The notes below the pieces were generated by a model. The model ran no database searches and had not been told where the DNA came from. It saw nothing but the letters and a program-made list of their open reading frames with translations. Made by a program: the position numbers and the translations under genes. Below are positions 163 through 63,725 of a DNA stretch of 64,000 nucleotides, one piece after another. The stretch is from Sphaerolaimus hirsutus (Eukaryota; Nematoda; Chromadorea; Monhysterida; Sphaerolaimidae). The number at the start of each line of letters is the position of its first letter. Position 1 is the first letter of the stretch. Where the stretch lies: assembly GCA_964036195.1 (NCBI GenBank), contig OZ038460.1, forward strand, positions 19,803,526 to 19,867,525, given 5' to 3'.

Positions 163-957
163 CAGAGTTGCGAAAGTGTATTTACACTTACCCGAAATAC
201 CCGGGTAAATGGGTATTTATATTTACACTTACAGTTACACTTTCATAAAATACCCATACACTTTTTTTACACTTTCCTGAGCAAAATACCCGGGTACAGA
301 AAGTGTATTTTTTTTTCTTCAGATGGCCCTGTTTCATGCATTTGAGAAAGCATAAAATAGAGTCATGTACAAAAAAATAACTGCACGGTGCACACATGCA
401 GTTATGCATTGAGTGTAGAAAATATGGCAAATGTACAAACTAGCCTTTGATCTCCAACCTTTGATCAGTACTCATGGTATTCTTCAGTTTCATCATACTT
501 TTGTAAAAAGGACAATATCAATGGAAATTCACCAGCTGGACACAAAGTCAACTGGCTTTTGCATTGACATTTGCTGCGTGTCCAATCTTGCATTTAAGCA
601 GTGTTTATCACATTGCTTAATCAGTAAATATCAACACTGAAAAAGTGCCATTATTAGTGAACATCATACAACTACAGTATTTGCTACAGTCTGAAATGTT
701 TCATAAAAGGCAGTAAAATGTGAAATGATGCATAAAAATGACAAATACATTGATCTAAATGTGAAAACAGTGGTGTATTCTAATGCTCAACAGTGAGAGC
801 TCTTTCTAAAAAAATTTTTTACACTTACACTTTTTTTTACACTTTCCTAGGTATTTTTAAAATACCTTACACTATTGGTATCCATACTCAAAATTTGGAA
901 AGTGTATTTACACTTACACTTACACTTTCCAAAAATACCGGTATTTTAACAACTCTG
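163..957. mobile_element. hAT-like non-autonomous element, AGTGTA/TTTACAC type
   Basis: The ends are CAGAGTTG at 163 and CAACTCTG at 957. An 8-bp direct duplication, CTATTTAG, flanks them at 155-162 and 958-965. Both ends are crowded with AGTGTATTTACACTTAC and AAATACC motifs in both orientations, while the middle (about 320-790) is plain AT-rich DNA with no recognisable gene. hAT transposons make 8-bp duplications; assignment to that superfamily rests on the duplication and the end shape, as no transposase is present. Confidence 0.85.
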
Positions 958-1094
958 CTATTTAGAGCTGGAATTGCAATCGTGCAACAACCAGTACTGG
1001 CATCAAATTTAAAGTGTAGTGGACAAAGGGTGTAAACAAAAATTGGAAATTTGTTAACTACTCTAAAAAAATCTCAGAAATTATAAACACCTAC

Positions 1095-1215
1095 CGTAAA
1101 TATTTCCTCGAATTACCCCCCCCCCCCTCGAAATACCCCCCTCGAGATACCCCCCTCAAAATGGGCACTATGAATTAATAACCCCCCCCCCCACCGAAAT
1201 ACCCCCCCCCAATTG
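1095..1215. repeat. Fragment of the CTCGAAATACCCCC element family
   Basis: Begins TACCGTAAATATTTCCTCG and contains several CTCGAAATACCCCC units and the phrase CACTATGAATTAATAACC seen in other members, then CAATTGAGTGTAAAGAGA. The matching right end is missing. Complete relatives are at 2652-3088 and 46878-47734. Confidence 0.7.
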
Positions 1216-1369
1216 AGTGTAAAGAGACCGTCAATGACAAAAGCTGCGGTTTATGACCTGGGCAATGCATAACACACGTTAAAAACAATGATTGTGTACT
1301 TTAGAACATGGTTAATACCATCTACACACGTATGTCAGGCGGTAGACTCTTTTACATGGTTGCATTTTT

Positions 1370-1885: not shown

Positions 1886-2002
1886 TGAAAATGCGCAGTC
1901 ACAACGTTCGCACTGACCGCGACGCAATACTCTCCCGCTTTGCAAGCCACAGCCGCCGCCACTGTGCGCTCAGTTCTCAGCCCCGCGTGCCTGGTCGTCT
2001 GG

Positions 2003-2641: not shown

Positions 2642-2651
2642 TTCATCAATG

Positions 2652-4930: not shown

Positions 4931-7900
4931 ACCTGATTCGTTTCATGTCTGCCGAGTTTAACTTGTGCAACATTTTAATGTCAGACCATCAATTTGTAAT
5001 TTAATAGAAACATTTTAATACCTTGAACGTTCACGCCATATATCAGTGTGTTCTGGCACCCTTCCAACGTAATATCTACCTGCCGTTCTATTGGAGGCTG
5101 CCGTTCTATTGTATTCGTGAGTGCAAAAAAGAGCCAAAACCTGCCGTTCTATTAGAAGAAATAGGTACGATAGTTGAATATCTACATTTTCGCATCGCAT
5201 TTGCATGCTCAAATTCATTCGCAAACCTACTGAATTTTAGAAGAAAAAAAAAAAATAATAATAATTTACCTGAATTTACAGGAACCAATTCTGTGTTTAT
5301 GTTGTTGCCAGTCTTTGTGATCTTCAGAGTTAGAATGTCACCCACCGCACCAGCTGTGACATAATATAAACATAAATTGAGGCAATGTTGCAATATGTTG
5401 TCTTCAGACCAGAGTTGTTAACATACTGGTGTTTTTGGAAAGCATAAGCGTAAGTGTAAATACACTTTCCAAACTAAAGCAAGTGTTTATACTAAAGCAT
5501 AAAATACCGAGCATAATATATTCCTCACGTTTTTCCTGGGTGCTTCAACTACCATATACTTTCCTTTTGTGGAAAAAATATTCTGTTTTGTTTTTGTTTT
5601 TTTTCTGAGGTATGTGATTATTTCTTCTAGCTGGAATTCACCCATTTCTTTCTTGGAGTTGCAAACATATAACAATCTTTCCACATTCAGCAAAAATCCC
5701 AGCTATCATCTAAACGAACCCTTGAATGGAAAACGAGACACATCGGGTTTGGTGCCATCCAAATACTGTAACTTTGACCAATCCCCAGTGTTCTTTGTCT
5801 GACCATCCATATTATATTTACTTGTTATTTCATTCCACACGTAGCCGCCCACCGCAAAAGTGTACTCCCAGTTCGCAGCTGAAAATTTGACAGTTTCACT
5901 GATATACCGTATTTCTTTTAATGGAACGGCGCCGTTCTATTTTTTCGTCAATATTTTGACCTGCCGTTCTATTTGAGGTGCCGTTCTATCGGAGGCTGCC
6001 ATACTATTCTTTTCATGGATGTAAAAAAGTGCCAAAAACCTGCCGTTCTATTGGAGGTGCCGTTCTATTGGAGGTGCCGTTCTATTGGAGGTGCCGTTCT
6101 ATTGGAGGTGCCGTTCTATTGGAGGTATGCCGTTCTATTAGAAGAAATACGGTATTAAGTTATATGATCACCATCTGTTAAGCGGGAATTAGAGCTCAGC
6201 GTCGATTCGACATGAAATGACGACGTGAAATGATGTCGTGAAATTAATTACACGAGTGTGGATCATGCTACGGGTCTACAATTTTCTAAGGACCCTGCAA
6301 ATGGGGGGAGTGTTTTATCCAGTCAAACGTATGCCACGCTCATCGGAGGCAGTGTGATGCAATGATTCGGAAATGTCTATATGGTTAATGTGTACTAAAT
6401 AGTGAGTGAGTGTATGTTTGAGAGGAGCGTAACCTCTTAGGAGGTAAGGCTCCATATCTCTTTAACAAAAATAAAATAAAATAAAAGGATAATATATGAA
6501 TCAATACCTTAATCGTGTCCAATACTGAGTGTTATCAGCCACAACTAGAGCGAATTGAAAAATTCAATTTTTATCATTTCACGTCATCATCATTTCACGT
6601 CACAGTGTTAGGGAACAACTTGACATTTCACATCAGACTGCTGCTTGCAATAGTCTGACGTGAAATGTCAAGTTGTTCCCTGACGTAAAATGATGACGTG
6701 GAATGATAAAAATTGAATTTTTCAATTCGCTCTAGTTGTGGCTGATAACACTCAGTATTGGACACGATTAAGGTATTGATTCATATATTATCCTTAGAAA
6801 ATTGTAGACCCGTAGCATGATCCACACTCGTGTAATTAATTTCACGACATCATTTCACGTCGAATCGACGCTGAGCTCTAATTCCCGCTTTATAAACAGT
6901 TGATAACTCTTTAGAACTTGAAGTAGGTATTTTTGGACAAATTTAGTAGATATATTTTAATAAAACGTGTTCCTTGAAAAAGTGTTGAGGAAGAACTTAC
7001 AGCGCAGTAGGGTTCTTCTTTTGCAAATACAAATAGTGGGGAAGTAATTAATACATGTTTTTGTTGATTACATGTTCACGCTTCTGTGACTTAACTATTC
7101 ATATACCTATTTTAATAATCTTGCATCCTACCGCATTTGCTTGAATAATTCCCCTGGGCAATTTTTAGTCAGACTTTTTCAGTGGACTATTAGAGGGGGA
7201 CTATTCAAGCGGCGGGTTTATTATTTTGTCAAATTTTCAAGCACGTGTCAATCTACTCATTCCACAAAATATGCTTGTTTAGCACCATAAATGGTCGTTT
7301 TTGTAAATTGAACACAACAAATTAATCGTATACCTTGAGGGGAAATTATTCAAGGGGGGTTATTGTTTCCTCGGTCATCTTACAGGGGGAAGGACTTTTT
7401 GAGGGGATAAAATTCAAGCGGGAATTATTCAAGCAAATATGGTACATACAGTTGTCTTACTATTCACCTAGTTTACCATTACCACCATAGACAAGTAACG
7501 GCACACACACAAAAAAAAACTTTTAAAAAAAATCAACAAAAAACTCTAGCAATAAACCCACAACAAACCATTGTCCTGTTTTTTGATTGATTTCACTATC
7601 TCTTCAACAACTTCATCTAACTCCTCCTTATTTTGGAACGTTGCCGAAACTGCATTCAATTGAAGTTGGCAAAATCGCGTGTGATTGAATATACTTTGAG
7701 TTTTCACTTTCCATCCATCCGCTGAATCGGGTATGTGGAAACATTTTCCCGTTTTCGACACCAGGGGGCACTCCCGGACCCTGTAAAATGCCCTGTAAAA
7801 TGTCAAAAATCAAGGAAAGTGTCTAAAGACATTTAAAATGCCATGTAAAATGACAAATTCGTTTGCCATTTTCCAGGGAATTTTCCAGGACTGTAGAAAC

Positions 7901-10900: not shown

Positions 10901-13900
10901 TGAAAAAGTTTGATGAAAAATGTGCCTAGGTACGTAAAATCAATTGTTAGTGGCTGATTTTGAGTCGTTCATTAACCGACGCAAAAACCGACGGAAAATG
11001 CGTTAACGTAAAATTAATTTTACGTCGGCTTGTTTTAAGATACCTAATTTGTTTTTCATTAAAATTAGAAAATTTGATATGATAAATTTTGCAGAAAATT
11101 GGTATTGAAAATGCCTAAAATTTCATAGATACGTTTTCTGTACTCCAGTACTTTCAAAAAGTATATGTAAAAACCGGAGTACAGGAACTTTTTCGAGGAA
11201 ATGTAAACGTACCTATCTACTCTGTACTCAAGTAAATACGTTTTAACAACTACATAGGTATGTCCCAACCCCCAATCTCACAAAAACGCTGCTTTTCTTT
11301 TTCCGTAGTGATAGATCCGGGCGCGGCGCCATCCGTTCCACAATGTGTCAAATGTTCCTGGACTCTCTTCGGGCCGCCCAGGGTGCATTCCCAGACCCTG
11401 TAAAATGCCCTGTAAAATGTCAAATGTCATGCAAAGTCTAAATGGTCTGTCAAAAGTCGTAACCCTGCAACAAATTCCCTGCAAAAAGCCGAATGAAAAG
11501 GGCCATTTTACAGTGCATTTTCAATGGTTTTAGACAGGACATTTTACACGACCTTTGACACTTTACATTACATTTGATGTTTCACAGGGAATTTTACAGG
11601 GTCTGGGAGTGGCACCAGTTGACGAGTGTACAGGCACCGCTGGCCAGGTGTTTCCCACGTCAATGCAGAAAAGAAATCTCCCTTTGCAAAATTGTGATTC
11701 TGACAGCCGGAGGCACGTCGGACTGCGAAGCGTAATTTTTTGGGGCTGTACGATTAAATTTTAAAAAGATGCAAAGGTGAAGTTACAGCATAACGATAAA
11801 ATAGAAGGTGATAAAACAAATAAAACGTCACCGAAAAATTCACCCTTTTTTATTTTTATTCAAAATTCATGTTTCATACTCTATTTTTCGCAAAAAAAAT
11901 TTATGTGCGAGGTGTGAAATTCGAATTTGACTGGAAAACGTTCGATGAAAGATGGTCCGCCCTAAAATCAATTTCACGGTGATGCCCTCAAATCAATTTG
12001 TCGTCTTCAAGTCATGCAATGAAACTTGAAACTTGAAGTGTAAAGTAAAGTGTCAAATGTAAAGTCAAATGCAAAGTAAACTGTCAATTGTCATGCAAAG
12101 TTCAGTAATGAAATCTTTTCTTTTTTGTTTTGATTGACACTTTACTTTATTCATTTGACTTTACATTTGACACTTTACTTGACACTTTACTTGACACTTT
12201 ACAGGGCTTGAGACTGCCACCAGCGCCAACTCACTGGCGACCACTTTATTCTTAGGATCCTCGCCGCCAGGCGCTTCTGCCGCCTTGTCGCACAGTTTCT
12301 CAGGATCGCCGAAAGTGACCACGGGCGAGTTCGCGGCCACCGTGCTGTCTGCAGCCTCGAACAGCTTCAATTCCCCCTCGCTGAACTGGAAGCGGACGCG
12401 CAGGTCGCGCTGCGGGGTGGATTGGGATTTGTTTGGTTGATTGGCAGTGTGAAATGCGAAGGGTTTTGTGTAGGGGGGTGAAAATTTCCTGTAAAATTGA
12501 ATGTAAGTTTAAGTTAAGTTTTGAAGTTTTTCCTTGTAAGTTTTTCCATCCAATTTGAACAAAAATTACATGTTATTTAGTAAATAAAGCATTTTTCATG
12601 AAATCAGTTCATAGAAAGATGCTTTAAAATTTTGACGAAATAATAATTCCCCCTTGAACAGGGTTGGTTTTATAAAAATCATTTGTATACAAATTGTATA
12701 AAAATTGTATAAAAATGTATTTTATTTGTATTTTATTCTTGTTTCATTTTATTTTATTTTATTCCAAAATCAAAATAAAATAATAAAATGGAACCATTTT
12801 ACAAAAATTTTACAAAAATGTACAGAAATTTTACAAAAAATCTGAATGTTGCATGCAAGGCCAAAAAAACTTTATAATTAGACCTAAAATGAAAAACGGG
12901 TGACAAATATTTCCATTACTTTGCAGAACTTACATGCAGTAGGTAGTTGCATGCAATAGGTAGCAAGTGTAAAGTAACAATTCTGATAATAATGGTTTGC
13001 ATTTTCAGTAGGAGTACTGGAGTGTGCGGGGAAATTTGTAAAATGTCATGCAAAGTGTCAATTGTCATGATGAATGTAAAGTAAAGAGCCAATTGACATC
13101 TCAAATGTCAGGCAAAGTGTCAATTGTTATGATAAATGTCATGCAGTGTCAATTATGTATCCGAATCTTGTGTTTTTGTATCCAAATCTTATGTTTTTGA
13201 ATCCAGATCGTATTTTTTGTATCCAGATCTTATTTTTTGTATCCAAATGTTGACATAACATTTGGATACAAAACCAACAACAAGATTTGGATACAAAACA
13301 CTATTTGAATACAATTTGCTTGACAGTTGCCACTTTAATTGTTATTTGTCATGACAATTGACACTTTACTTAACATTTGTCATGACAATTGATGCTTTGC
13401 ATGACATTTCATATGACATTTGACACTTTACAGGGCTTGGGACTGATCCAGCTCCATGTTGAACATGTTGAACATGTTGAAAACATGTTGAACCATAAGC
13501 AAGAAGAGAAAAATTTTACAAAAATTATGAATTTTTATACAATTTTTACAAAAATATGAATTTGTATACAATTTTACAAAATTTTTACAAAAATTCGAAT
13601 TTTTATACAATTTTTATTTTGAAATTTTCCATTTTATTTTATTCTTAAATTTTCCATTTTATTTTTATTTTTTTCTGAGATTTTGCCAACCCTGCCCTTG
13701 AATAATTCCCGCCCTTGAATAGTTCCCCCTCAAAAAAGTCTGACGAAAAATAATTCCCCAGGGGGATTATTCGAGTATATACGGCATTCGAGGTACTAGT
13801 AAACTAGTGTGCGGCGACATTCAGTACAATGTCATAAATACATTTATCTCCTGTATCCAACGCTAGCGAATGTTCACACATAGGATGATATTGCCCCTTC

Positions 13901-14331: not shown

Positions 14332-14446
14332 AATCGAGTGAACTCGTGCGCGCCCCACCTTCCAATCAAATTTGGTGTCTGGTCGATTTTCAATCCACAC
14401 TGGATTTATCGACCGAGTTGACACCTTCAGTTCGCTAGGGGTCCGG

Positions 14447-14710
14447 GGTGCGGCTGGTCAACTGCTGGGGTGCGGCTGGTCAACTGCTGGGGTGCGGCTG
14501 GTCAACTGCTGGGGTGCGGCTGGTCAACTGCTGGGGTGCGGCTGGTCAACTGCTGGGGTGCGGCTGGTCAACTGCTGGGGTGCGGCTGGTCAACTGCTGG
14601 GGTGCGGCTGGTCAACTGCTGGGGTGCGGCTGGTCAACTGCTGGGGTGCGGCTGGTCAACTGCTGGGGTGCGGCTGGTCAACTGCTGGGGTGCGGCTGGT
14701 CAACTGCTCG
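14447..14710. repeat. 22-bp tandem array, 12 units
   Basis: Twelve essentially identical 22-bp units containing GGTGCGGCTGGTCAACTGC, the last one diverging. 22 is not a multiple of 3, so any frame cycles through all three; the 177-codon plus frame across it (14372-14905) is an artefact of the lack of stops in the unit. The array lies upstream of the secreted-protein gene and could act as a clustered binding site. Confidence 0.9.
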
Positions 14711-15009
14711 GCTGCCGCACGTAAACTGCAATCGCTCCTCCTTGGACTGCCCGCGGCGCTGGGGCGCCGGTTAAATTCCATGTTTTTGGATGGTTTTCTT
14801 GGAAGTGTTCGTTCGTATTTGGGCAATTTTTCAATTGAAATGCAGTTGGTGTTTAAATGTGGAAGTGGGCAAATATGGATGTTGCAGGATTTAGGTTGGG
14901 ATTGAGTAACGCTGACGTGACAAATTTCATGAAAATTCATCGCCATCACTTCTCTTTGGCACTCTTCCCAATTAATTGAATGTAGCATTAATGTGTTTCG
15001 CTTATTCTA

Positions 15010-45433: not shown

Positions 45434-46038
45434 TAGGGTTGGCCGATGTTTTTTTTAAACGTTTTTTTAAAAAAAAAAAACATGACGTCCGAAATGTTTA
45501 AAAAAAAAAAAACATCGGCCGAAATTTTTAGTACTAAGCACTAGGTATTTTGCAAAATTTTTGCGCGCAAGCGCGCAATTTCACACACAAATTGACATTG
45601 GTGGTTGTTTTCATTGGTTTTGTTGCATTTTTAGTATCAAAACATCCATTTCTATGTGCTACCATGGGTGAATAAGCCGACATATGTTGCTGTAATATAT
45701 AATATTGAGGTAATGTGCTTCCATGTACCTCCACAGTGTGTAACTTCACTCCCAAAGTAACAACCTCCTTTTATAACCTTGTTTGATCACTATTCCGTGC
45801 CAAACTTTACCTGAAGTCACGAACATTCGACTATAAGGCGATATACGAACGATATGTCGACGAAAAATGGATATTTTTGACACAAATCACCACTTATAAT
45901 GCTATCCCATGGCTCCACAGCCATTATATGGTCATATTTAACATCACAGAGTATTGCCAGTGTCTGATATACCTATATATGTTGACACTAGGTCATATCT
46001 GGGAGCTTTTAAAAAAAAACGTTTTTTTTCCAACCCTA
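45434..46038. mobile_element. hAT-like AAACG element with GCGCGC cassette
   Basis: Ends TAGGGTTGGCCGATG and TTTCCAACCCTA, flanked by a perfect GATTTGTT duplication (45426-45433, 46039-46046). Close sister of 34782-35464, with TTTGCGCGCAAGCGCGCAAT near 45563. Confidence 0.9.
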
Positions 46039-46046
46039 GATTTGTT

Positions 46047-49071: not shown

Positions 49072-49653
49072 CAGCACAAACTGCATCAATTTTTTCGCAC
49101 TTTCACTTAGGGTTCAAACGGGATTGACTTTTCGGGATCGGGATCGGGATTGTTTTTTTGAGATTTCGGGATCGGGATCGGGATTGGCCGGGATTGGAGT
49201 CACGGGATCGGGATCGGGATTGGCATTGGCATTTTTTCGGGATCGGGATTGGGTCTTGGGATAGAGATTTTGGCCAATGTTCTGGCACCCACAGTTGTTC
49301 ATCAAGGTCTCAAAACACTGTTGGATGCCAGAAAATTGGCACAAAATGGACGCTGGGGGTTTGTGTTAACATTTTTGCATGCAAAAATGACATTTTTTCA
49401 TTTTTTATAATTTCCACCAATTTTTCCGGGATCGGGATGCCGGACTTGGGAGTTTCTCGGGATCGGGATTTGAAAATTTTCGGGATCGGGATCGGGACTG
49501 CTAAATCCCGGAATTTCACGGGATCCGGGATCGGGATCCCGTTTGAACCCTACTTTAGACACTTTGCATGACATTTCACATTGTACAGGGCTTTTTACAG
49601 GGTCTGGGACTGGCACCAGCACAAACTGCATTAATTTGTTTCTCACTTTCACT
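49008..49653. repeat. 100-bp direct repeats bracketing a GGGATC element
   Basis: 49008-49107 and 49553-49653 are near-identical (CTTTAGACACTTTGCATGAC to CTTTCACT) and abut the inserted element exactly on both sides. Differences include ATTTTAC/ATTGTAC and GGGAGTGG/GGGACTGG. Confidence 0.8.
49108..49552. mobile_element. hAT-like GGGATC element
   Basis: TAGGGTTCAAACGGGAT to ATCCCGTTTGAACCCTA, with GGGATCGGGATCGGGATT arrays and the ACACTGTTGGATGCCAGAAA and TTTTTGCATGCAAAAATG core. The immediate 8-bp flanks differ, because the element sits at the junction of a 100-bp duplication. Confidence 0.85.
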
Positions 49654-51643: not shown

Positions 51644-54600
51644 ATGAGCACCGTTTTACCGCTGGTCAACGGGTCCGGAAGTCACGAAATCGCCGCAAAC
51701 TCCGCCCACTTTTACCTTCAAAATGCGAGAAATTTATCGGCCGCCCCTCCTACGATGGTCAAAACGGAACTGAGACATTATGACGTCACTCTCTCTCAAG
51801 TTTACAGTCATCACCATCAGACACATCAAGCCACATCCGGTGTACACCTGAAACAGCCCCTGGGGCACTATTCAGCAGATTACTGTAGCCATTACAACGA
51901 CGGCCGCTCCCTTCCCGGCTACAGTAACCCGTGGAATGAAGCGCAGCACTACATTAATCAGAGGAATAGCGCGCAAACTCAAAGAGTGACCACTGGTCAC
52001 TCAAAAAGTGGCGATTTGGCAGATGTTTTGTGGACGTCCAATGGTTCTTGTACGACGATAGATTCTAACTGTGAATCTTCACCTATTGTCGATTGTGCGG
52101 TAGCTGGTGGATTTTACAACCCTTTGCCTGGAACTAGTGGGCTCAATGGGCAGGGTTACGGTAGTGCGACGCAATTGGCACAGTTCCAACAATTGGAGGA
52201 TGGCTTTGAGTTTGTTGTTGTTGTTTTTGGATTTGGATTTGGGCTCTGTTTTTAGTGCTTGATTTGTCAATGTTGTGTTACTTTTGGAGTGAATAATATT
52301 TATTGTATTATTTTTCCATTATCACCCTGTTCGCGATCAAATTGGTAAATAGCTTAGTTTCTGGAAATTTTGCTATTTTATCATGTCTTATCCACTTCAA
52401 ATAAATTTACATTAAAACTGTCTTGTATGAAATCTACTAAAATACTTATAGACTCATTTATCCTGTGATGATAGTTGACTGGCTTGTTTTTCATGATAAA
52501 AACCCTCATAAAAAGTCGACAAAAATTATTGAATGGTACTGATTCACCTGGAATTTTGAACTTGAGCTTACATTACATCATTATAAAAGCAACGTGGATA
52601 GTACGGCTACTGCAGGGGTATTTTCAATTTTGACCCCCCGGGTTGGATAGGTAAGCACATCGCTTCCCCGGAGGAACAGATAGCCGATCTTTTTTTTTTT
52701 TTTGGGGGGGGGGGTTCCCAACCCTTCCCCTTTCAAGAACCCTGGACTACTGCTTAAAATTGGCTCGAAACGGCGTGGCTCTAAGCCAAGCTTATGACAA
52801 TTTTGGAAAAGTTTTCATCATTCAAAACAGGGACGTATCCAGGATTTTTGAGCGGGGGGGGCTGTTTGTTTACGGAGCCCCGCGAACGGGGGGGGGGCTC
52901 AGCCCCCCCCCCTAAAATTTTCTCTACATAGTAACGGGATGGCGCCATGGCGCTAGCGCCATTCGTAGGCGCCACGCCATGGCGCTATTGGCGTTGGCGC
53001 TGACGCCAAGAGCAGCGGTATATGTTTATAAATATACATATATACACAGCGACAGGCACACAATTGATGGCATTTTCAGGGATATGCGTGTACAGGGACC
53101 GATCTGCTGAAAATACCTATGTGTGATGGAAGATTGCGCGCTTGCGCGCAAAATTTTTTACGCATACCTTCAAAATTACTCCCCAAAATCGCATTTTCCG
53201 GGACTTTTCTTGTCTCACCCCGGGAAGGGGGGGGGGGCTGCAGCCCCCCCCCCCCGCCCCCCCCTGGATACGTCCTTGATTCAAAACTACATTTAAAAGG
53301 GCCCAAAAACGTCATTATCCATCCCTAACCCAGACCCCTATCACTTTATCACCCCCCCCCCCACTTTACAGTTCCGAAGATGAGCCAAACTCGGCAACGA
53401 AATATGCGCGGATATCATCAGAGACAGCCGGCCAAGCGAGTTCCTCTGCTATTGGTGAGGGGTTGGGTTGAATGTTTTGTTGAGAAAATTTAGAAAAATC
53501 TTTTAATTGTGTATTTTTAGGGTTAAAAATTGAGATTTTGCTGGATTTGAATTAGTTCTTAAAATCCGAAACTCACGCTTAGCAATGAAACCTACGGTAT
53601 CCAAATCTCAGAGGGAAGAATAAATAATTTGAATTTTTAATCTCAAAACATCGTTTCCAGTGTGCAATCGATAATTTCGCAATCGCACATGATTCCATCA
53701 CACAACATAAACAATCCACCGAACAAACAATCTTATTCTACCCCCTAAACAACCCCCCCCCCCAATTCCCCCCCCCCCCACCAACAACACCCCCACCCAA
53801 ATAACACCCCACCCATCCAGGGGGTCTCCTCGCTGCAGCGGGCGGGGGTGCCAGCTGCGGAAATGTCGGCCCCACAGGGGGTGCAGTTGGTCACGTTAGA
53901 CCCACTCATAACCAGGGGCCTGGCTCTGTTTTCGATGAGCAGTTAAGCAGTGAGAAGGAGAGATGTGCTAGGTAGTTTTGGCAGTTTTGTGGATGATTTT
54001 TTGGGTACTTTTTTGTTTTTGCAAGTGGCAAATTGTTATATTTGGCTAACAAACGAGTGTTGTATGATCCGACAAACCCATCCACGAACCAAAAAGAAAA
54101 AAAAACTAATCTGATTTTACACAATTTACAAAAAAAAAATTACCCCAAAATTTTCCAGAGAGAACCACAGTGAAATCGAGCGTCGGCGGCGCAACAAAAT
54201 GACGCACTACATAAACGAGTTGGCGGACATGGTGCCCCAGTGCGCTGCTCTTGGCAGGAAGCCAGACAAGTTGACCATTTTAAGAATGGCCGTGTCGCAT
54301 ATGAAGTCGATTAGAGGTTGGTTTGGTGGCGAATTTATTCAGTTGGGACGTACCTAAGGCGCTCGTTGGGACCTTGTCCAGTCTAGCACTTTGTAAAGTG
54401 TCAAATGTCATGTAAAATGTCATATAAAGTTGCAGATGTCATGCGAATCTTCAAAAGTTGAGTAATTTTTTATATTTAAGTATATTTTAGTAAATTTAAG
54501 TATATGTAATTTAAGTATATTTTTAGATTCAAATTTTTTATGGCATTTCACACTTACTTTACAGTTTACATGGTGCGGACTGTCCCATTGTAAGTAAGCG

Positions 54601-57600
54601 CTTGAATCTCACTGTAAAAAAAATGAATTTTAATAAAATTGTTTGTCCATCGCAGCGAACACTGGAAACACCAATGCAGATGGTTCATATAAACCGTCGT
54701 TTCTCACCGACCAGGAACTGAAGCATCTAATTTTAGAGGTTTGTTACTCGAAAATTAAAGTAAAAGAAATCGTTTGCGATGAAACTTTCGTCTACATTTT
54801 TGCCGTATTTTGGCAGGCTGCCAACGGTTTTCTATTCGTGGTTTCGTGCGACACGGGTCAGGTGCTCTACGTGGCCGACACAATTCTCCCGGTGCTTAAT
54901 TGCTCGCAGGTATGTTTGTTGGATGTTTGCCAAGTGGGCCTATGATGTGCAAAATTTTGTTGATGTGTAGATTAATGTTGTTTAGGATAGTTTTTGCCGC
55001 ATAGCTAATTCCACGTTACTTCTAGATCCTGTAACATGTCAAATGTCACGCCAAGTGTCAAAAGTTATGTAAAATTTTTTTTGATATTTTGTAAACTTTT
55101 TCCAAATATTTTGATGAATAAGGTCACCTGAAAATTGTGCACCTTATTAACGAGAAGTGAAAAATTTAATGCCTGTCCATATATTCGGATGGAATATGGT
55201 AGATTTCATGCTTAGGTGTGCCGTCAGTAGTCTATACTGATAGATTCATCAAACCGTCGATTCGACATACAGGCCGATTGGTTAGATCGATCGATTTTCG
55301 ACCTAATTCACCCTGATGACGCGGACAAAGTGCGCGAACAATTGGCCAGTACCGATAATGCGGCTTTGAGTAGAGCGCTGGACTTGAAAACTGGCACTGT
55401 GAAGAAAGAGACTGCGCACAGTGAGTTGGATGCTTTTTTGGAGGGGTTGGTGTCGATTAAAGGGCCTGTAAAATGCCCTGTAAAATGTAAAATGTCATGC
55501 AAAGTGTCTAAGTCATGGAAGATGCCTTGCGAAATCAAAATGTTATGAAAAGTGTCGAATGCCACGAAAAGTTTCTGAAGTCGTGTAAATAAAATGCTTG
55601 GCAAAATGTCAACTCTCATTCAAAGTGTCAAAAGTCATGGAAAATGCTCTGTAAAATAGTAGTCGTACGTTTGCCATTTTCCAGGGCATTTTACATGACA
55701 TTAAACACTTGCATGAATGTGACGTTTTACCTGGCATTTCAAAAAATTTCAGTGTATCTTCTCATTAAATCTACCACTAGGTCATCAACATTCCCCCAAA
55801 AAATCCCCCACCAACCTAAAAAAACCCACAGGCTCCCTCCGCTTGCACATGTCTTGCCGGCGTGGTTTCATCTGCCGCATGCGGCTAGGCTCCGCCCACT
55901 CGACATCAAGCTCCGCCCACAATGGGAACAATAATGGCCAAAATGTGGGAAGTACGGGCGCCCAGTCTGCGTTGCATAGACTGAGACATCGGAGGCCCAT
56001 TTTTACGCATAATGGCGGACAATATGTGGTCGTTCATTGCACGGGGTATATTAAGAATTGCCCCCCGCAGGGTTTGTTTTTGTAAATTTGTTTTTATTTT
56101 TGACTTTTCAATGTTGAGAGTGCGGTTTTTTGGTATATTTCCGTGCAGTCGGGTAGAATTTTTTTGACAATGTATCGGCAATGACAACTTAAATTGTTTT
56201 AAATTTCTATCATGTGATAAGTAAAGTGTCCGAAGTAGGGTGTCAAAAAAAATTTACGAAAAACGGAAAGGTAAAAAAAATTTCAGCTGCCGGAAAGCGG
56301 AAAGAAAAAAATGTTCGTGCGGAAAAGCGGAAACGAAAAACGAAAACGGCAATTGGACATTCTAGTCCGAAGTACCACACTGTCAGTAAAAAAATCGGCC
56401 AAATTGTTATCGCACAAATTTATTTTAAAAAAAGGTTCCAATATTTTAAATAACACATTTTTATATCCGAAACAATAATATCCAAAACCCCCCAAAGGTC
56501 TCGACCCCCAGTCGTCAGCAGAGATGGCACCTTTGGCACCAGGGCTGGGTTCCTGTTTAGTAGCCATAGGTCGGCTTCAAATCAGCGCCATGCCTCCAAC
56601 ATCCCAAAATTCCGGCACACAACAACAAACTGCGAATGGCCATGGAGTGGCTGGGTTGGATGAGTGCCAAAATCAGTTTATGATGCGTTTTGATGCCGAG
56701 GGTAGGATCACTTTTGTGGATCAGAAGTGAGTGGAGAGATCTTTTGGGATATTTAAGTGTCAGACTTTTTTGTTTGTTTTTGTGATTTGTAGTTGATTAG
56801 GAGACATTAGAATGTCATATGAAAGTATTCATACCACGTCATTTCCTCGAACTATCCCCTGTGGTTTATTATTTCGCTAGCAGAATATTTTTTTGGAATG
56901 GGGGGGTGGTAATTCGAGTGTTTGATTACTTTGCCAGAAATTTTTGTGTAGGAGCTTAGTGGAGTTTAGGCCTTTACGTACCCAAGACTGGTAATAAATG
57001 TGACCATACGTGATATGTTAGGTAGGGTTCAAACGGGACCGCGGTCCCGGTACATGGTTCGGCAAAAAGTCGGGACTGGGGCGGTCCCGGTCCCGGTCCC
57101 GGTCCCGACACCCCAGTCGCGGTCCCGGTCCCGGTCCCGACAATTCAAAAAAGCCAGTCCCGGTCCCGGTCCCGGTCCGGACCACCCAGTCCCGGTCCCG
57201 GTCCCGGTCCGGGAATTTTGTAGTGGTCCCGACAAGGGATGAAGAAAAATGTATTTTTAATGACCTTTTCAAAAAATTTGCCAGAAATGCCACTTTTCTA
57301 AAGATTATGTAGGCACATCTAAAAACAATTTGTGCGCGAGCGTGCAAATACCCACCCAATGATTACATGTCTTTTTCTGTAATAAAACAGCGTTAGAAAG
57401 GTCCCCAACACAATTCTAGTATGAAATATTTATAGGTATATAAAGATACCTAGATAGTAGACATTGGCGCCAATGCCAGCGCCAATACTGCCATGGCGTT
57501 GGCGCCTACAAATGGCTCTATTTCTTAACTATAGGGCCAAAATTGAGGGGGGGCATTACTTGAATAATGTTCCAAGAAAGGGCTAATACATTGAGCGTGG

Positions 57601-60600
57601 TCCTTCACACAGTGGAGGTGTGTGGAACAACATTGGCCGGATATTATGTACCAATAGGTTCAAACGAGACCGTGGTCCCGGTACATGGTCCGGCAAATCC
57701 CAGTCCCGGGACCGACCCCCCAGTCCCGGTCCCGGTCCCGGTCCCGACAATTGAAAAAAGCCAGTCCCGGTCCCGGACCCGGTCCCGACGCCCCAGTCCC
57801 GGTCCCGGTCCCGGTCCCGACATTAGAAAATTTCTGGTCCCGGTCCCGGTCCCGGTCCGAAAAACTGGTCCCGTTTGAACCCTAATGTTAGGGCATATCA
57901 ACGCACATCGCTACACAAACTAGTATACGTGTAGCTGCGATGCAAATTGGTGAAAAAAATTACATCACATACATATATTGCATACATGATGTACATCCAG
58001 GAACCTGGAAGTGGAACCTCATTCAAAACGTAATTGCGATTTAACAATCCATTAACCTGTTCTTTCCAATTGCCCAGGATGCACTCACTTCTTGGCTGGA
58101 AGCCAACAGAACTGACTGGCGAACCTTGGTGGCACCTGGCATATCCCACTGACGAACGGGCGCTCAGAGACACTTTTGAGCAGGTGTTGTCCACTTGAAG
58201 ATTTTTGTTGGCCCAGTTGGGAAATGATAGTATCGATGTTTCGTGTCTAGCGATGGGAGAACGCAAGAAAAATGGAGTCAAACTCCACGGCGCCACAGAA
58301 AATGGCGCCATGCCGCCATTGCACCACCAATCGTGGCGAACTTCGAGCTTTTTCGATATTGATCTCTCGATATCGAAAATGTGGGCAAATTATATAGAAT
58401 GTTGGCAGGGCACCTCGATACGACAGTCCATCGTATGTCTACATTGAGTACATTTTCATATCCGAAAACAATCCATTGCTCCAGTCCTAATCACTGGTCG
58501 TTTTCATCGGGTCAGGCCTATTACGCATCTAAACCCATTGCGCATGCAGACCCATTATAGACACATTACACCCGCGGGGGTAAGAAAGGGAACGGGTAAC
58601 CCCACCCCAAACCACCCAGCTATCTATCTATACCAGAGGCAATTTTTTGACTACTTTTCCCTGAACAGCCCCCCCCCGCAAATTACCTGGCTGTCTGGAG
58701 TGTTTTTAAGCAATTTTACCCTACTTTTCACCCAAAGTCCATAAATTTCATATTTTTTATGGATTTTCACCTTTAAAATCACTAGGTCTTTAAAAACATT
58801 ATGTGTGTTAAAAACATTATGTGTTAAACAATGTGTTTTATTGCATATTTTCAGCATGTCGGGTATGGTTTAATGCGTGCCGGGTCTACATGCGTGATGG
58901 GTTTACATGGCACAGGGCCGGTTTCATCAAATAATTTTTTTATTTTTCAATTCCCAGGCGCTAAAACACAAGGACACCACGTTAACGGTGCAGTGGCGCT
59001 GCAGACAAAAATTGCCCAGTCAACAACAATCGTCCGCCGATTATTATCCAATCACCTCCAGTCTTTATAAGTTCCTCAATCCGTATTCGGACGAGTTCGA
59101 GTACGTGGTGGCCACGCACACGTTGTTGCCTGGTGCGCAGTTGCCCAGCGCGCAGTTGCCTACTGCGCACGGCGTTGTGGGAAGTGAATCGGGCATGGGT
59201 GCTTTAAATCAGGTGGGTTAGGCTGTTTTTTAAATCATTTTTATCGCGTACTGCCATACCATAGTAAATATGATAGCGAAATTCAGTAAATATGTGTTTT
59301 TCTCCCGAACGTAAATAATCCATGCACAATCGTGTTGCTTCTTGCGGATTGAGTTTCTCACACAAAAATATTCTAGAGAACATTTTGGCACACTGTCATC
59401 TACCGTATTTCCTCGAAATCCCCCCTGAATTACCCCCCCCGCCCCTCGAAATACCCCCTCAAAATTCATCCCTCAAAATTCATCCCTCAAAATTTTCACT
59501 CTGAAAAAAATAACCCCCTGGGGTATTTCGAGGGAATACGGTTTCTTCATAACTTTTCACTGTATGTTAGTGGAAGTCTATCTAAAAATTTCAAATTTTC
59601 AGCCGGACTCACTTTCTGGCACTTGGCCAAGTGCCATGCACGACCCGCAGGCAAATTTCGGGACATCATATGCCGCAAGCGACGCCTATGCTAATTTGCC
59701 ACCGATGCATCCTGGTGGGTTTATGTACTTTTCTATTTTTTGTGGTTTTTCATTTTTGTTTGATTTTACACTGCTTCTTTTGGTACCGTAATGTGTCGTT
59801 TAAGAACCCATTGTGCCTGCGCACAGGACGTATCCAGGATTTTTGAGCTGGGGGGGGGGTTGCTTGTTTACGGGGGTCGGCGAACGGGGGGGGGGGCTCA
59901 GCCCCCCCCCCTCCCCCTAAAAAATTTTACCGTATAGGGACGGAAAGGCGTTTTGGCGCTAGTGCCATACAAAGACGCCACGCCATGGCGCTATTGGCGT
60001 TGGCGCAAGCGCCAGGAACCTCTTTATATGTATGTAAATATGCATACGTATACAGCGAAAGTCGCAAAAATGTGTTCATTTCGAAGGATATTGGTTTACA
60101 GGGAACGATCCGCTGAAAATACAATGCATGGGGAAGAATTTGCGCGCTTGCGCGCAGAATTTTTAAGAAATATCGAAAAATATGTTGGAAAAGTTGCATT
60201 TTCTGGGACTTTTTAGGTCTCACCCCGGGAACGGGGGGGGGGGCTGCAGGCATAGGTAGGGTTCAAACGGGATTGACTTTTCGGGATCGGGATCGGGATT
60301 CACTTTTTGAGATTTCGGGATCGGTATCGGGATCGGGATTGGTTTTTTGAGATTTCGGGATCGGGATCGGGATTGGCCGGGATTGGGGTCACGGGATCGG
60401 GATTGGGATAGGCATTTTTCCGGGATCGGGATTGGGTTCTAGGGATAGAGATTTTGGCCATTTTTCTGGCATTCACAGTTGTTCAGAAAGGTCTCAAAAC
60501 ACTGTTGGATGCCAGAAAAGTGGCATAAAATTAACGCTGGGGGTTTGCATCCACTTTTTTGCATGCAAAAACGTCATTATTTCACTTTCTATAATTTCCA

Positions 60601-63342
60601 CTAATTTTTCCGGGATCGGGATCCCGGACTTGGGAGTTTCTCGGGATCGGGATCGGGATTTGAAAACTTTCGGGATCGGGATCGGGATTGGTATTTTTGA
60701 GATTTCGGGATTGGGGTTTCGGGATCGGGATCGGGACTGGTAAATCCCGGAATTTCACGGGATCCGGGATCGGGATCGGGATCCCGTTTGAACCCTAGGC
60801 ATAGGGGATTTTGGGGTTAGCATTTTGAGGGGGGGGGGGTCAACCTGCCGGCACGTGCTTATAACTCGGGAACCGCTTGGCGAAAAATGTTGAAATTTGG
60901 ATATGATATGGTTTCAGGTTGGGGCTACGCACAATTCCGACGAAATTTTCCTACGAGCTCCCTGAGCGGAGATAGGGTGGGTCTATAAAAAGGGGGCAGG
61001 CCTGATACGCACATCTGCCCGATACGCACATATGCCCGTTTTTTTCACTTTACACTTTTTCAAGTGATTTTCAGATATGAGTGAATTGAAAAACGCTGCG
61101 CAATGACATTAGTGAAACTTTTTTCACTTCACTCATATCTGAAAATCACTTAAAAAGGTGTCAAGTGAAAAAAACAGTGAAAAAAAGCAATTTTTCACTG
61201 TTTTTCACTTGACACATTTTCAAGTGATTTTCGGATATGAGTGAAGTGAAAAAAGTTCACTAATGTCATTGCGCAGCGTTTTTCAATTCACTCATATCTG
61301 AAAATCACTTAAAAAAGTGTCAAGTGAAAAAAAACGGGCAAATGTGCCTATCGGGCAGATGTGCGTATCAGTGCACCCCCTATAAAAAGACGGTAATTTT
61401 CGAAATTTATGGTGTGTTTCAGAAAATGTAAAGTTTGAACATCAATATCTGGACTATTTCTAGGCCGATTTTAGTAATTTCACTTTTAAAGGGATGACAA
61501 ATGCTTGAAGAGTTCATTTCTGAGGTCAAATAGGCGATACAAAATTGTGTATATATCGATTTGGCCGGATTTCGTAATGCAAAATTTACAAAAAAAATCT
61601 CTTTTTGAACATGCTATCTTATACTCCTGATCGAGAGAAACACCATACCGAAAGAATGGGATCGATATCTCTCTCCAATCAAAAGTTATAGCACTTCAAA
61701 CTTTCGCCTCCCATCCATGTAAATAACCGCAAAATGCGCATGTAAATAACCGCATAAGAGTCCAGTTGTAAGTTTAAATTGTCAATATGCTTTTTCATAA
61801 TGATAATTTCATACAAGAGTTTGCATTATTTTCTTCTGTGGGTAATTTAAGTTAGGATACAGATAAGCTGAGCATGCAAATGGTATCTTCAGGTTATTCT
61901 GATCATTTTAAGTGTTCATTGGTAAAAATCGGCTGAGAAATGGTCGAGATATGGAGTTTTGAATTTCAACGCATTGACCTTCATGCGGTTATTTACGTGG
62001 ATGGGAAGCGAAAGTTTGAAGTGCTATAACTTTTGATCGGAGAGAGATATCGATCTCATTCTTTCGGTATGGTGTTTCTCTTGATCAGGAGTATCAGATA
62101 GCATGTTCAAAACAATAAATTTTGCATTTCGAAATCCGGCCAAATCGATGTATACACAATTTGGTATCGCCTATTTGACCTCATAAATAAACTCTCCAAG
62201 CATTTGTCATCATTTTAAAATTGAAATTACTAAAATCGGCCCAGAAATAGTCGAGTTATTGATGTTCAAAGTTTGCATTTTCTGAGCGACACCCAAAAGT
62301 TTCGAAAATTACCGTCTTTTTATAGACCACCCTATCTCCGGTCAGAGGGCTCGTAGGAAAATTTCGTCGAAATTGTACGTAGCCCCAACCTGAAACCATA
62401 TCATATCCAAATTTCAACATTTTTCGCCATTCGGTTCCCGAGTTATAAGCACGTGCCGGCAGGTTGACCCCCCCCCCCCCTCAAAATGCTAACCCCAAAA
62501 TCCCCTATGCCTGCAGCCCCCCTCGCTCCCCCTGGATACGTCCTTGCCTGCGCACACTTATTTTCACACGAAATTTCTAAAACTCACAAATCTGCTTAGA
62601 ACGCATTTGAGTTTTCTACTACGAGATGGCCGTCAACTACAGTTGGCGCAGATTAAAAATAACTCATCGTGGAAAACTAAAACATGTTCAAAGCTCATTT
62701 ATGAGTTTTCAAAACTTCGTGTGAAAACTAGTGTGCGCAGGACCATTGGGTGGCTGCAAAATTGTTTTTTTTAAGAATCGCGCTTTTCGTTTGGATGAAC
62801 TTTCGTCGTAGCATTGGAAAGTAAACTGCTCGGGTTAATACCGCTGCACACACTAGTTTACTAACAGAAAAGTAAGAATTTGGTAAACTCATTTTTTAGC
62901 TTCTGCGTGCATCTGAGTTTACCGGAATGTGTTATTTTTAATCTCCGTCAACTGTAGTTGATGAACAGCTCATTCCGGTAAACTCAGATGCGATCAGAAG
63001 CTGAAAAATGAGTTTACCAAATTCCTAGTTTACCGTTAGTAAACTAGTGTGTGCAGCGCCAATTGGTGCAGATCGCTGTCACCTTCGAGTCGAAAAACTT
63101 TGAGGGTTTCGTGCCGCCAGAAATGTATTGATTCCATTCCATACTCCCTAATATTCCCAAAAGCGTTGTGAGTAAAATGAAAAGTATGTAAGAAATTTAA
63201 CTTTTTAAAAAACTTTTTAAATAATGGAAAATCTTTTTACAACACAGAGTTGGTGGATTCGCTGGGACAAGTGGCTGCAGCGGAACAAGCTATGAATTCG
63301 TACCAGAGCGCTCATTGGCCCAGCACAAATGCTAATTTTTGA
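51644..63342 (+). CDS. ARNT: ARNT/tango, bHLH-PAS transcription factor
   Basis: ARNT is the shared nuclear partner of AhR, HIF-alpha, SIM and trachealess-type bHLH-PAS proteins. Thirteen exons join in unbroken phase, about 772 residues: 51644-52209, 53372-53454, 53821-53971, 54159-54316, 54656-54738, 54817-54909, 55273-55420, 55832-56071, 56498-56726, 58078-58183, 58958-59212, 59603-59714, 63248-63342. Order: long N-terminal region (about 265 residues, Ser/His/Gln-rich), bHLH, PAS-A, PAS-B, short tail ending WPSTNANF then TGA. The ATG at 51644 is a choice; the frame stays open upstream to an acceptor before 51569. The N terminus is much longer and the C terminus much shorter than in vertebrate ARNT. 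Introns carry many transposons; no exon is disrupted. Confidence 0.92.
52613..52744. mobile_element. Short hAT-like element, CTATC-type remnant
   Basis: CAGGGGTATTTTC to AAGAACCCTG; flanks GGCTACTG and GACTACTG agree at 7 of 8. Interior GGATAGGTAAGCACATCGCT and CCGGAGGAACAGATAGCCG mirror the right end of 24462-27513. ARNT intron 1. Confidence 0.65.
52828..53278. mobile_element. hAT-like G-rich element, perfect duplication
   Basis: CAGGGACGTATCCAGG to GGATACGTCCTTG, flanked by ATTCAAAA (52820-52827, 53279-53286). Contains the GGCGCC cluster, a TATAAATATACATATATAC tract and TTGCGCGCTTGCGCGCAA near 53137. ARNT intron 1. Confidence 0.9.
54159..54316 (+). CDS. ARNT: ARNT bHLH exon
   Basis: The preceding exon ends with [11 protein letters not shown] and this one adds [15 protein letters not shown] (basic region with the His, Glu and Arg that read the E-box half-site), helix 1, a loop with [13 protein letters not shown] and helix 2 [11 protein letters not shown]. 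This is the most conserved part of ARNT and fixes the family. Acceptor phase 2, donor phase 1. Confidence 0.97.
54385..54592. mobile_element. GTCAAATG foldback MITE, worn
   Basis: CACTTTGTAAAGTGTCAAATG at the left and TTTACATGGTGCGGACTG at the right, with an AAGTATATTTTAGTAAATTT centre. ARNT intron 4. Confidence 0.6.
54656..56071 (+). CDS. ARNT: ARNT PAS-A exons
   Basis: Four exons. They include the ARNT signature [18 protein letters not shown], then [20 protein letters not shown], a HPDD motif and KTGTVKKE, then [11 protein letters not shown] and [15 protein letters not shown] drives dimer choice. Between RMRLG and HRLRHRR there is a Ser/Asn/Gly-rich loop, which varies between ARNT proteins. 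A foldback MITE lies about 45 bp after the donor at 55420. Confidence 0.93.
55466..55735. mobile_element. TGTAAAATG MITE, extended copy
   Basis: Starts GGGCCTGTAAAATGCCCTG; the arms are long and interrupted, the right part being TTTGCCATTTTCCAGGGCA and onward. It begins just after ARNT exon 7, and the exon's open frame runs into it if unspliced. Confidence 0.65.
56236..56364. mobile_element. 129-bp hAT-like CGGAAA element
   Basis: TAGGGTGTCAAAAAA to TTGGACATTCTA, flanked by a perfect GTCCGAAG duplication (56228-56235, 56365-56372). A minimal copy of the CGGAAA family in ARNT intron 8. Confidence 0.85.
56498..59212 (+). CDS. ARNT: ARNT PAS-B exons
   Basis: Three exons carry the linker with [13 protein letters not shown], then FVDQK joined to [14 protein letters not shown], a region in place of the usual FCHPED ([17 protein letters not shown]) and [13 protein letters not shown]. 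The Pro-Thr-Asp in place of the common HPED motif is a small oddity. PAS-B binds the partner's PAS-B and coactivators. Confidence 0.88.
57023..57884. mobile_element. hAT-like GGGACC element with a repeated left end
   Basis: TAGGGTTCAAACGGGACC to GGTCCCGTTTGAACCCTA, flanked by a perfect ATGTTAGG duplication (57015-57022, 57885-57892). Filled with GGTCCCGGTCCCGGTCCC arrays. The left-end sequence recurs inside at 57656 (TAGGTTCAAACGAGACC). Between the two array blocks lie GTGCGCGAGCGTGCAAA and a GGCGCCAATGCCAGCGCC cluster. ARNT intron 9. Confidence 0.9.
58290..58800. repeat. Worn repeats in ARNT intron 10
   Basis: GGCGCCACAGAAAATGGCGC near 58290, a TCGATATTGATCTCTCGATA hairpin near 58355, then CTATC-type remnants (CCCAGCTATCTATCTATAC, TTTTCACCTTTAAAATCAC) to 58790. 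Confidence 0.45.
59401..59543. mobile_element. TACCGTATTTCC element, short
   Basis: Starts TACCGTATTTCCTCGAAATC, ends GTATTTCGAGGGAATACGG; interior CTCGAAATACCCCCTC and three AAAATTCATCCCTC units. ARNT intron 11, close to the acceptor of exon 12. Confidence 0.75.
60257..60797. mobile_element. hAT-like GGGATC element, duplication verified by the opposite arm
   Basis: TAGGGTTCAAACGGGAT to ATCCCGTTTGAACCCTA, flanked by GGCATAGG (60249-60256, 60798-60805). The opposite arm of the host palindrome has GGCATAGG once, confirming the 8-bp duplication. Confidence 0.92.
60993..61380. mobile_element. GATACGCACATCTG hairpin element, 9-bp duplication verified
   Basis: GGGGCAGGCCTGATACGCAC to GTGCGTATCAGTGCACCCCC, flanked by TATAAAAAG (60984-60992, 61381-61389); the opposite arm of the host palindrome has it once. 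Interior is the same four-arm palindrome as 15379-15761. Confidence 0.9.
62556..62744. mobile_element. CACACTAGT-type foldback
   Basis: CACACTTATTTTCACACGAA against TTCGTGTGAAAACTAGTGTG, with AAAACTCA/TGAGTTTT inside. The G-rich element 59824-62546 inserted at its left end. Confidence 0.65.
62848..63057. mobile_element. CACACTAGTTTACT foldback
   Basis: CGCTGCACACACTAGTTTAC and TGGTAAACTCA against their inverses, meeting near 62950. The right end lies 190 bp before the last ARNT exon. Confidence 0.75.
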
Positions 63343-63494
63343 TTGAATTTTTTATCATTTATTTATGTGTCACAATCAGAGTTGCGAAAATGTAATCACA
63401 TTTATTTTGTCTCTGGAAATCTTTGTCATTTTGCGTTATTTTTATTCAAAAGTGGTGTATTTTAACCTTGATGAAAGTCGTTACTGGTGATAAC

Positions 63495-63701
63495 TATGGA
63501 TGAAAAAGCATTTTTTACACCCCATTTTGAATAAAAAAACATCTAAAAACGTGTTTAAATATAAATCTCCAGAATTTCTTCAATCTCCAAAATCTCTTCA
63601 AAAGTTTCCAGATATGGTTATGAGTGTACAAATGGAAGCAATTACACTAAAATGCCTTAAAACTAATGAAAAAAACCTTTGAAAAACACCCGCCATCTCT
63701 A
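63495..63701. mobile_element. hAT-like mini-element, perfect duplication
   Basis: TATGGATGAAAAAG to CGCCATCTCTA, flanked by GTGATAAC (63487-63494, 63702-63709). Shares CCAGATATGGTTATGAGTG with the AAACG cassette family at 32235-32906. Confidence 0.75.
63530..63535 (+). promoter_or_regulatory. Possible ARNT poly(A) signal within a transposon
   Basis: AATAAA 188 bp after the stop codon, inside the mini-element at 63495-63701. If used, the ARNT transcript end is transposon-derived. Confidence 0.35.
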
Positions 63702-63725
63702 GTGATAACCATTTTTGTAACTCTG

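Follow-up and report, generated by a model that had tools for sequence, protein, structure and literature searches.

Non-autonomous hAT elements with alike ends and different subterminal motif arrays in Sphaerolaimus hirsutus

hAT insertions in the window

The DNA considered here, referred to as the window, is a stretch of 64,000 nucleotides from the nematode Sphaerolaimus hirsutus (C16:19803526-19867525, in a genome of 348 Mb and 762 contigs), whose genes and repeats have a eukaryotic look. Its insertions are non-autonomous hAT elements, built to one design of end and bearing, inside those ends, arrays of a short word that differs from one class of element to the next. A preliminary description had put the number of such insertions at about 17, each with a perfect 8-bp target duplication. 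This count can be checked for the 13 that were named: when the position given is taken as the first base of the element and the 8 bp preceding it as the duplication, the duplication is perfect in 13 of 13. The elements of the window, with the strand where one is assigned, are as follows:

163-957, minus strand: hAT non-autonomous element with CAGAGTTG ends and motif AGTGTA (TACACT x12); duplication CTATTTAG
5410-5569, plus strand: decayed CAGAGTTG end with the AGCGTA layout; 2 AGTGTA, 1 AGCGTA and 3 AGCATA in the 160 bp examined
12659-13694: hAT element with CAGGGTTGG ends and weak AT-rich repeats; duplication CCCTTGAA; empty site matched
21716-22170: hAT element with CAGAGTTG/CACAGTTG ends and weak AATGTA repeats; duplication CACTACAA
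23308-23690: hAT element with CAGGG[AC]CGTATC ends, not named earlier; duplication ATTTACGT
24462-27513: outer hAT element with CAGGGGTCTCC ends, CTATC repeats near its ends and two nested insertions; duplication GGTTTGTT
24771-25348, plus strand: hAT element with TAGGGTTCAAAC ends and CGGGAT x37, nested in 24462-27513; duplication CTTTTAAC; empty site
25428-27395, plus strand: hAT element with TAGGGTGTCAA ends and CGGAAA x41, nested in 24462-27513; duplication CCCGCGAG; empty site
27610-28453, minus strand: hAT element with TAGGGTGGCAG ends and motif CGGTA(C), TACCGT x22; duplication ATTCGGGA
29886-30811: outer hAT element with CA[AG]GGACGTA ends; duplication ATGTGGTG
29926-30476, plus strand: hAT element with TAGGGTGTCAA ends and CGGAAA x22, nested in 29886-30811; duplication GGCGGCCG
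34551-35840, plus strand: hAT element with TAGGGTGTCAA ends and CGGAAA x27 (counted with the nested element); duplication CTCTAATT
34782-35464: hAT element with TAGGTTTGG/TAGGGTTGG ends and motif AAACGTTT, nested in 34551-35840; duplication GCTGGAAG
42344-42508, plus strand: CGGTTC array with TAGGGTTGG ends; no matching duplication (TCGAGTGA/GTGATATA)
45434-46038: hAT element with TAGGGTTGG ends and few AAACGTTT copies; duplication GATTTGTT
46995-47422: hAT element with CAGGG[AC]CGTATC ends, not named earlier; duplication GAAATGGT
49108-49552, plus strand: third CGGGAT copy, with TAGGGTTCAAAC ends; duplication not preserved (CTTTCACT/CTTTAGAC)
52828-53278: hAT element with CA[AG]GGACGTATC ends, not named earlier; duplication ATTCAAAA
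56236-56364, plus strand: short CGGAAA element with one end off consensus; duplication GTCCGAAG
57023-57884, minus strand: hAT element with TAGGGTTCAAAC ends and CGGGAC x32 (as GTCCCG); duplication ATGTTAGG; empty site
60257-60797, plus strand: hAT element with TAGGGTTCAAAC ends and CGGGAT x30; duplication GGCATAGG; no empty site found

The ends of hAT elements generally follow the pattern YARNG. A blind scan for exact duplications flanking 12-bp terminal inverted repeats with at least nine matches, and with YARNG at both ends, gave 15 pairs in the window at a duplication length of 8, and 1, 2, 0, 0 and 0 at lengths of 5, 6, 7, 9 and 10, respectively. The earlier list holds ten of the 15, the extra five being those at 23308, 24462, 29886, 46995 and 52828. 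The strict scan misses three named elements, at 21716, 34782 and 56236, in which one end departs from the consensus but the duplication is kept. Applied to a random genome sample (20 pieces of 10 kb, or 200 kb), the same scan gave 29 pairs at length 8, and 4, 1, 0, 0, 0 and 0 at 5, 6, 7, 9, 10 and 11, so that 8-bp duplications are found in the random sample as in the window. The excess at length 8 in both window and random DNA speaks against chance duplications. With a looser requirement of eight matches in the 12 terminal positions, 31 elements are found in 11 of the 20 pieces, occupying 17,371 of the 200,000 random bases.

The window insertions thus have the 8-bp duplication of hAT elements (not present in the CGGGAT copy at 49108 or around the CGGTTC array at 42344), short YARNG terminal inverted repeats (three listed elements being off at one end) and multiple short subterminal repeats (weak in 12659, 21716 and 45434). 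They are short, at 129-1968 bp except for the 3052-bp host of two nested copies, they have no intact transposase gene, and none of the matches to the hAT dimerisation domain listed genome-wide falls in the window. Empty sites were sought by comparing sampled DNA with the joined flanks of 20 insertions, from which one of the two duplications had been taken out. For ten of the 20, at least one match spans the junction. In the window these are 24771 (10 matches), 25428 (10), 57023 (5), 29926 (1), 27610 (1), 34782 (9) and 12659 (13), where those for 34782 and 12659 may stem in part from surrounding repeats. Outside it they are an insertion at locus L022 (3), a CGGGAT element in L035 (11) and L001 (4, two of which lie in L001 itself). 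Loci L001-L028 were picked by a transposase search and hence are not random.

Motif arrays and sister families

The preliminary description had taken the dense array to be the whole interior of an element. Instead, the repeated word is confined to two arms, which flank a core. Taking the core as the largest gap between motif copies, the arms measure about 110-260 bp each across seven elements: 196 and 204 bp around a core of 178 bp in 24771, 176 and 187 bp in 60257, 209 and 210 bp in 57023, 258 and 251 bp in 25428, 209 and 165 bp in 29926, 167 and 153 bp in 27610, and 111 and 138 bp in 163. Within the arms the words are clustered, often in threes, with AT-rich spacers between them, and lie mostly on one strand (CGGGAT 37 against 3; CGGAAA 22 against 0, in 29926; GTCCCG 32 against 3). 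This arrangement looks like the usual subterminal repeat of hAT elements, restricted to two arms. The suggestion that the motif continues from the inner end of the terminal repeat is borne out for the TAGGGTTCAAAC series, in which the inner part of each terminal repeat is one copy of the word, meeting the array head-on at the right end.

Comparison of seven CGGGAT copies shows spacers that are recognisable throughout, with whole blocks missing in the short copies, and a number of words per slot that varies from one to five, so that motif copies have been gained and lost unit by unit. In five CGGGAT elements, 42 of 888 core letters deviate from the majority base as against 9 of 996 word letters, the latter being a lower bound, as it omits two fixed near-words and every word copy with more than one change.

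The class of motif tracks the type of end. (L010, which overlaps L009, and L017, which adjoins L016 and has the same duplication, are excluded from the counts of end classes, CGGGA[CT] triples, AGCATA and TAGGGTGTCAA ends.) The 28 TAGGGTTCAAAC ends in sampled DNA each have one dominant and nearly exclusive word, which is CGGGAT in 16, CGGGAC in six and CGATAT in six. The CGGGAT ends have 3-16 copies per 160 bp (11-16 in 15 of the 16), no CGATAT and at most one CGGGAC; the CGGGAC ends have 8-14 copies, and no CGGGAT except for one copy in L042; and the CGATAT ends, from transposase-selected loci, have 12-14 copies and neither of the other words. Most CGGGAT copies have a single CGGGAC in the right arm, apparently a fixed site that does not follow the class word and is possibly a relic or has another function. 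Triples of CGGGA[CT] are pure in 57 of 66 cases in 352,639 sampled bases, and seven of the nine mixed triples are the T-T-C form of this fixed site. All 30 TAGGGTGTCAA ends have CGGAAA, in 3-15 copies (mean 11.1) on one strand, while the other CGG words tested and CGATAT number zero in them. The two TAGGGTGGCAG ends have CGGTAC; TAGTGATG ends have GGCACC in some elements and GCGCCA in others; TAGGG[TA]TGG ends go with AAACGTTT, weakly with AAAGGTTT, and with CGGTTC (42344); and CAGAGTTG ends go with AGTGTA, AGCGTA, AACGTA and weaker classes, some having none of the words tested. Genome-wide, TAGGGTTCAAAC occurs 16617 times against 37 for the reversed word, and CAGAGTTG 31,676 times against 6,578.

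The initial observation of one end design with different motifs is therefore confirmed, by the 15 length-8 pairs of the window and by the classed ends. That each family has an array of its own motif holds for CGGGAT, CGGGAC, CGGAAA, TACCG and AGTGTA; the arrays of 12659, 21716 and 45434 are weak. CTATC had also been placed among the families with shared ends, wrongly: its repeats are those of the outer element 24462-27513, whose ends are of another type (CAGGGGTCTCC).

The cleanest pair of classes is represented by the AGTGTA element 163-957 and an AGCGTA element at the start of L006, whose arms are homologous and whose cores are unrelated. Along the arms, 12 of 13 word copies differ at their third base, against 0 of 64 other word bases and 29 of 225 remaining bases. 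Between two AGTGTA elements (163 and one in L039) the corresponding figures are 0 of 13, 0 of 65 and 17 of 226. In L006 the one unchanged copy, an AGTGTA in inverted orientation, lies next to the first triple; L026, of the AGCGTA class, also has it, and its retention in both hints that AGTGTA is the older word. Triples of AG[CT]GTA number 4455 genome-wide against 9 for the control, with 2081 of the all-T form. The first 100 listed come from the first 12.2 Mb of contig C1. Base frequencies predict 27.4 pure triples among them, and 93 are observed (38 T, 55 C); this figure should not be read as 93 events, since overlapping triples enter the count one by one and an element's two arms do not vary independently. 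When same-strand neighbouring triples 300-1300 bp apart are read as arm pairs, 33 of 34 agree, which none of 5000 shuffles attained; there are no opposite-strand neighbours at this distance among the first 100 listed.

Coding partners and neighbouring features

Matches to the hAT dimerisation domain, of which 28 are listed genome-wide, allow candidate coding partners to be allocated to some of the classes. CGGAAA arrays contain or adjoin eleven of these matches, and eight of the eleven fall within elements whose duplications are perfect; another four are next to CGATAT arrays, where the element in L011 has both ends and a duplication matching at seven of eight positions; and two are inside AACGTA elements with perfect duplications. 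A further seven are in TAACGATGG elements, L016 and L017 sharing one duplication; one adjoins a single CAGAGTTG end (L003); and three (L012, L023 and L027) have no assigned host element, the domain in L012 lying outside a nearby CGATAT element. The proposal that each motif is the subterminal repeat of a coding partner thus holds in part for CGGAAA, CGATAT and AACGTA, in each case with a C-terminal fragment only, and for the other classes no partner was found.

The transposase fragments of these three classes are of differing types. In the protein piece compared, the CGGAAA and CGATAT types are identical at 27 of 53 positions, and AACGTA and L003 at 44 of 67; other pairs are at about 0.3. This comparison used 23 of the 28 loci (L010, L012, L017, L023 and L027 were left out), and its shuffle test (0 of 2000) is a weak one, since copies of one family are related.

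The TAACGATGG-type ends belong to a 1.1-kb family (L013, L014, L016, L017, L018, L024 and L026) with perfect 8-bp duplications and a hAT C-terminal domain. A zf-BED match at L049 (2398-3222) was considered as a transposase and rejected, being in a host-like gene outside a transposon, with a zinc-finger-like open frame upstream (by eye). When ten of the 55 listed open frames of the window were compared with Pfam, only an LTN1 fragment was found, and no transposase. This match, to the HEAT-repeat region of LTN1, is in an exon-like open frame (34078-34548) that adjoins the CGGAAA element 34551-35840. Open frames resembling a BEL/Pao reverse transcriptase (by eye; without a Pfam match) lie at 25704-26854, inside the CGGAAA element 25428-27395.

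The window has several other repeats. A long near-palindrome at 60829-62478, a foldback-like element some 1.65 kb in length, consists of three pairs of inverted arms (152, 186 and 140 nt; 95, 89 and 92% complementary) around a 252-nt core. At 15416-15721 and 61039-61333 lie two copies of a repeat that has inverted arms and a period near 157-159 bp. A 22-bp tandem unit is repeated 13 times at 14445-14729 (97% matches), with the reading frame open, and a 51-bp unit about four times at 45098-45311 (97% matches). At 6221-6862 a perfect 72-nt inverted repeat, its copies 498 nt apart, encloses a 106-nt pair that is 99% complementary.

Interpretation and relation to known systems

In the motif-rich elements the hexamer arrays are probably binding arrays, each for the family's own transposase, in which a change of specificity was followed by replacement of the word across the whole array. 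Each hexamer is most likely the binding site for the DNA-binding domain of that transposase. The short terminal repeat would serve cleavage and would be kept because catalysis constrains it; and when a transposase lineage changed its specificity, nearly every hexamer copy in both arms would change with it. The likely route would be gain and loss of hexamers unit by unit, through slippage or gap-repair copying, together with selection by the new transposase. The initial interpretation, an amplified filler evolving together with the ends, is partly supported in that unit-wise gain and loss are seen; the motif itself does not look like an invading filler, and as the cause of the swap we infer co-evolution.

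Several observations sit uneasily with this account. An empty site was not found for ten of the 20 insertions (60257, 163, 21716, 56236, 45434, 34551, 49108, L012, L020 and L021), and the arrays in 12659, 21716 and 45434 are weak. The arrays run in one direction, so that the two ends are not mirror images. L026 is less clean than L006, its third bases differing from AGTGTA at six of eight positions, with one changed copy; seven of the first 100 listed AG[CT]GTA triples are mixed; AACGTA ends contain 0-2 AGCGTA, and L038 is mixed. The coding copies seen are C-terminal pieces, with no full-length gene, and among the 28 listed domain matches there is no partner for CGGGAT, CGGGAC, CGGTAC, CGGTTC, AAACGTTT, AGTGTA, AGCGTA, GGCACC or GCGCCA, which include both members of the cleanest pair. 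The lowest identity within a class of protein (0.41) is below the highest between classes (0.66), a comparison that partly reflects family copies. A search for zf-BED domains, which did not extend to the Hermes type, gave eight matches genome-wide, the one read being in a host-like gene, and it revealed no DNA-binding domain within an element.

It is rather unlikely that the classes are simply separate hAT families, with their own subterminal repeats and with ends that are alike by constraint, among which no swap has taken place. The general YARNG form of hAT ends and the wholly different cores of the classes would fit such a history, as would the spacers of the TAGGGTTCAAAC classes (CGGGAT, CGGGAC and CGATAT), which are alike only weakly (z 2.4, 1.0, 2.0, -0.3 and 3.1), so that descent from one element is not firmly supported. 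Against it stands the 12-bp identity of TAGGGTTCAAAC in three classes of similar layout; and it is hard to hold for AGTGTA and AGCGTA, the arms of which, apart from the motif, align base for base. Some of the end types may nevertheless be separate hAT families whose ends are alike through constraint on hAT ends. The AGTGTA and AGCGTA elements, with alike arms on unrelated cores, might suggest that recombination or gene conversion had placed whole arms on new cores, the classes then being shuffled modules rather than the outcome of a change in transposase. This seems quite improbable, since the agreement of both arms in 33 of 34 pairs would require the arms to move together, and since a one-base change in nearly every copy would be left unexplained.

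Two mutational origins of the arrays must also be weighed. Neutral replication slippage, by which the arrays would be microsatellites without a role that had grown inside the elements, is very doubtful: motif number per slot does vary between copies and a tandem repeat finder reports the arrays, but in the five CGGGAT elements divergence is about five times lower in the motif copies than in the core (with copies bearing two or more changes uncounted), the same word is found in both arms and, in the TAGGGTTCAAAC series, in the terminal repeat too, and AG[CT]GTA arms separated by a core agree in 33 of 34 pairs. Nor are the arrays unrelated to the ends, as microsatellites might be, given the fidelity of motif class to end type in the 28 TAGGGTTCAAAC ends and in 30 of 30 TAGGGTGTCAA ends. 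Alternatively, AGTGTA might be AGCGTA after loss of methyl-cytosine, the swap being an artefact of mutation. AGCGTA to AGTGTA is indeed a CpG transition, and the arms of the two AGTGTA elements have fewer other CpGs (5 and 2) than those of L006 (8), as decay predicts, so that some CpG loss has occurred. Decay should, however, give AGCATA about equally, and AGCATA is absent from the four full AGTGTA-class ends (7, 7, 7 and 8 AGTGTA) and from a partial fifth (L023; 2 AGTGTA), while numbering three in each of two decayed ends (L045 and 5410 of the window). Decay is therefore unlikely as the source of the pure AGTGTA class. Between CGGGAC and CGGGAT, moreover, the change does not involve a CpG, and as an account of the swap the artefact is very unlikely.

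It is possible, and we suggest it only tentatively, that a change of one or two bases in the recognition word amounts to transposon speciation, in which sister hAT families keep their ends, spacers and arm layout, have the hexamer bound by the transposase exchanged in nearly every copy, and become orthogonal parasites in one genome. If true, this genome would record a hAT recognition code (CGGGAT, CGGGAC, CGGAAA, CGGTAC, CGGTTC, CGATAT, GGCACC, GCGCCA, AGTGTA, AGCGTA and AACGTA) that could be read against DNA-binding domains. An open question is how a transposase can come to recognise a new DNA word, given that many sites in each of many elements have to change along with it. Where one genome holds sister families that stand before and after such a change, with motif triples in their thousands that differ by one base at nearly every site, the question would become directly testable, and the words themselves would be a natural series from which to learn how DNA is read by the binding domains of hAT proteins.

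The elements resemble maize Ac/Ds, with its 8-bp duplications, short terminal repeats and subterminal regions of about 200 bp with many transposase-bound hexamers, and Ac/Ds likewise has deletion derivatives and elements with unrelated cores (PMC3260210). The repeats to which the Ac transposase binds, within 200 bp of the termini, read AAACGG (PMC3260210), and the CGGAAA elements hold many AAACGG copies, for example 27 in 25428-27395. Unlike Ac/Ds, the genome considered here has several motif classes on the same end design, in dense and nearly pure arrays. In a survey of proteins from different species on arrays, the words favoured by the BED and Hermes domains of hAT proteins are diverse, most of them containing CGG or CGC and some being AT-rich, and all four hAT proteins that gave motifs match their own subterminal regions (PMC8097297). 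The words found here are of the same kinds as those of CGG-binding proteins and hAT-19 transposases (CGG words, GCGCCA, AT-rich), but they come from the DNA of the elements themselves, in one genome, and include an array-wide change between sister families.

The Herves transposase binds CGATTCAT, and Tag1 and Tol2 each bind a differing subterminal repeat of their own; these are single elements in different species, and the available part of that report describes no sister pair differing mainly in motif (PMC3143072). Galileo has internally repetitive and structurally changeable ends, as do the elements here, but is of the P superfamily, and a swapped recognition word with constant ends is not mentioned in the part available (PMC3573991). 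Unusual miniature elements (MITEs) of corals have the reverse pattern, with conserved cores and variable ends (PMC2872659). A further precedent belongs to another superfamily: the soybean CACTA elements Tgm1 and Tgmt* have constant terminal repeats and form two subfamilies that differ in subterminal motif and in transposase, for which co-evolution has been raised (PMC2613891), although with a 3-bp duplication, two subtypes and a longer motif. A search of open-licence literature by title and start of abstract gave only the precedents cited and no description of a motif-swapped hAT series. The general principle is thus already known, and the array-wide change of one base between homologous arms is, as far as the literature was searched, new.

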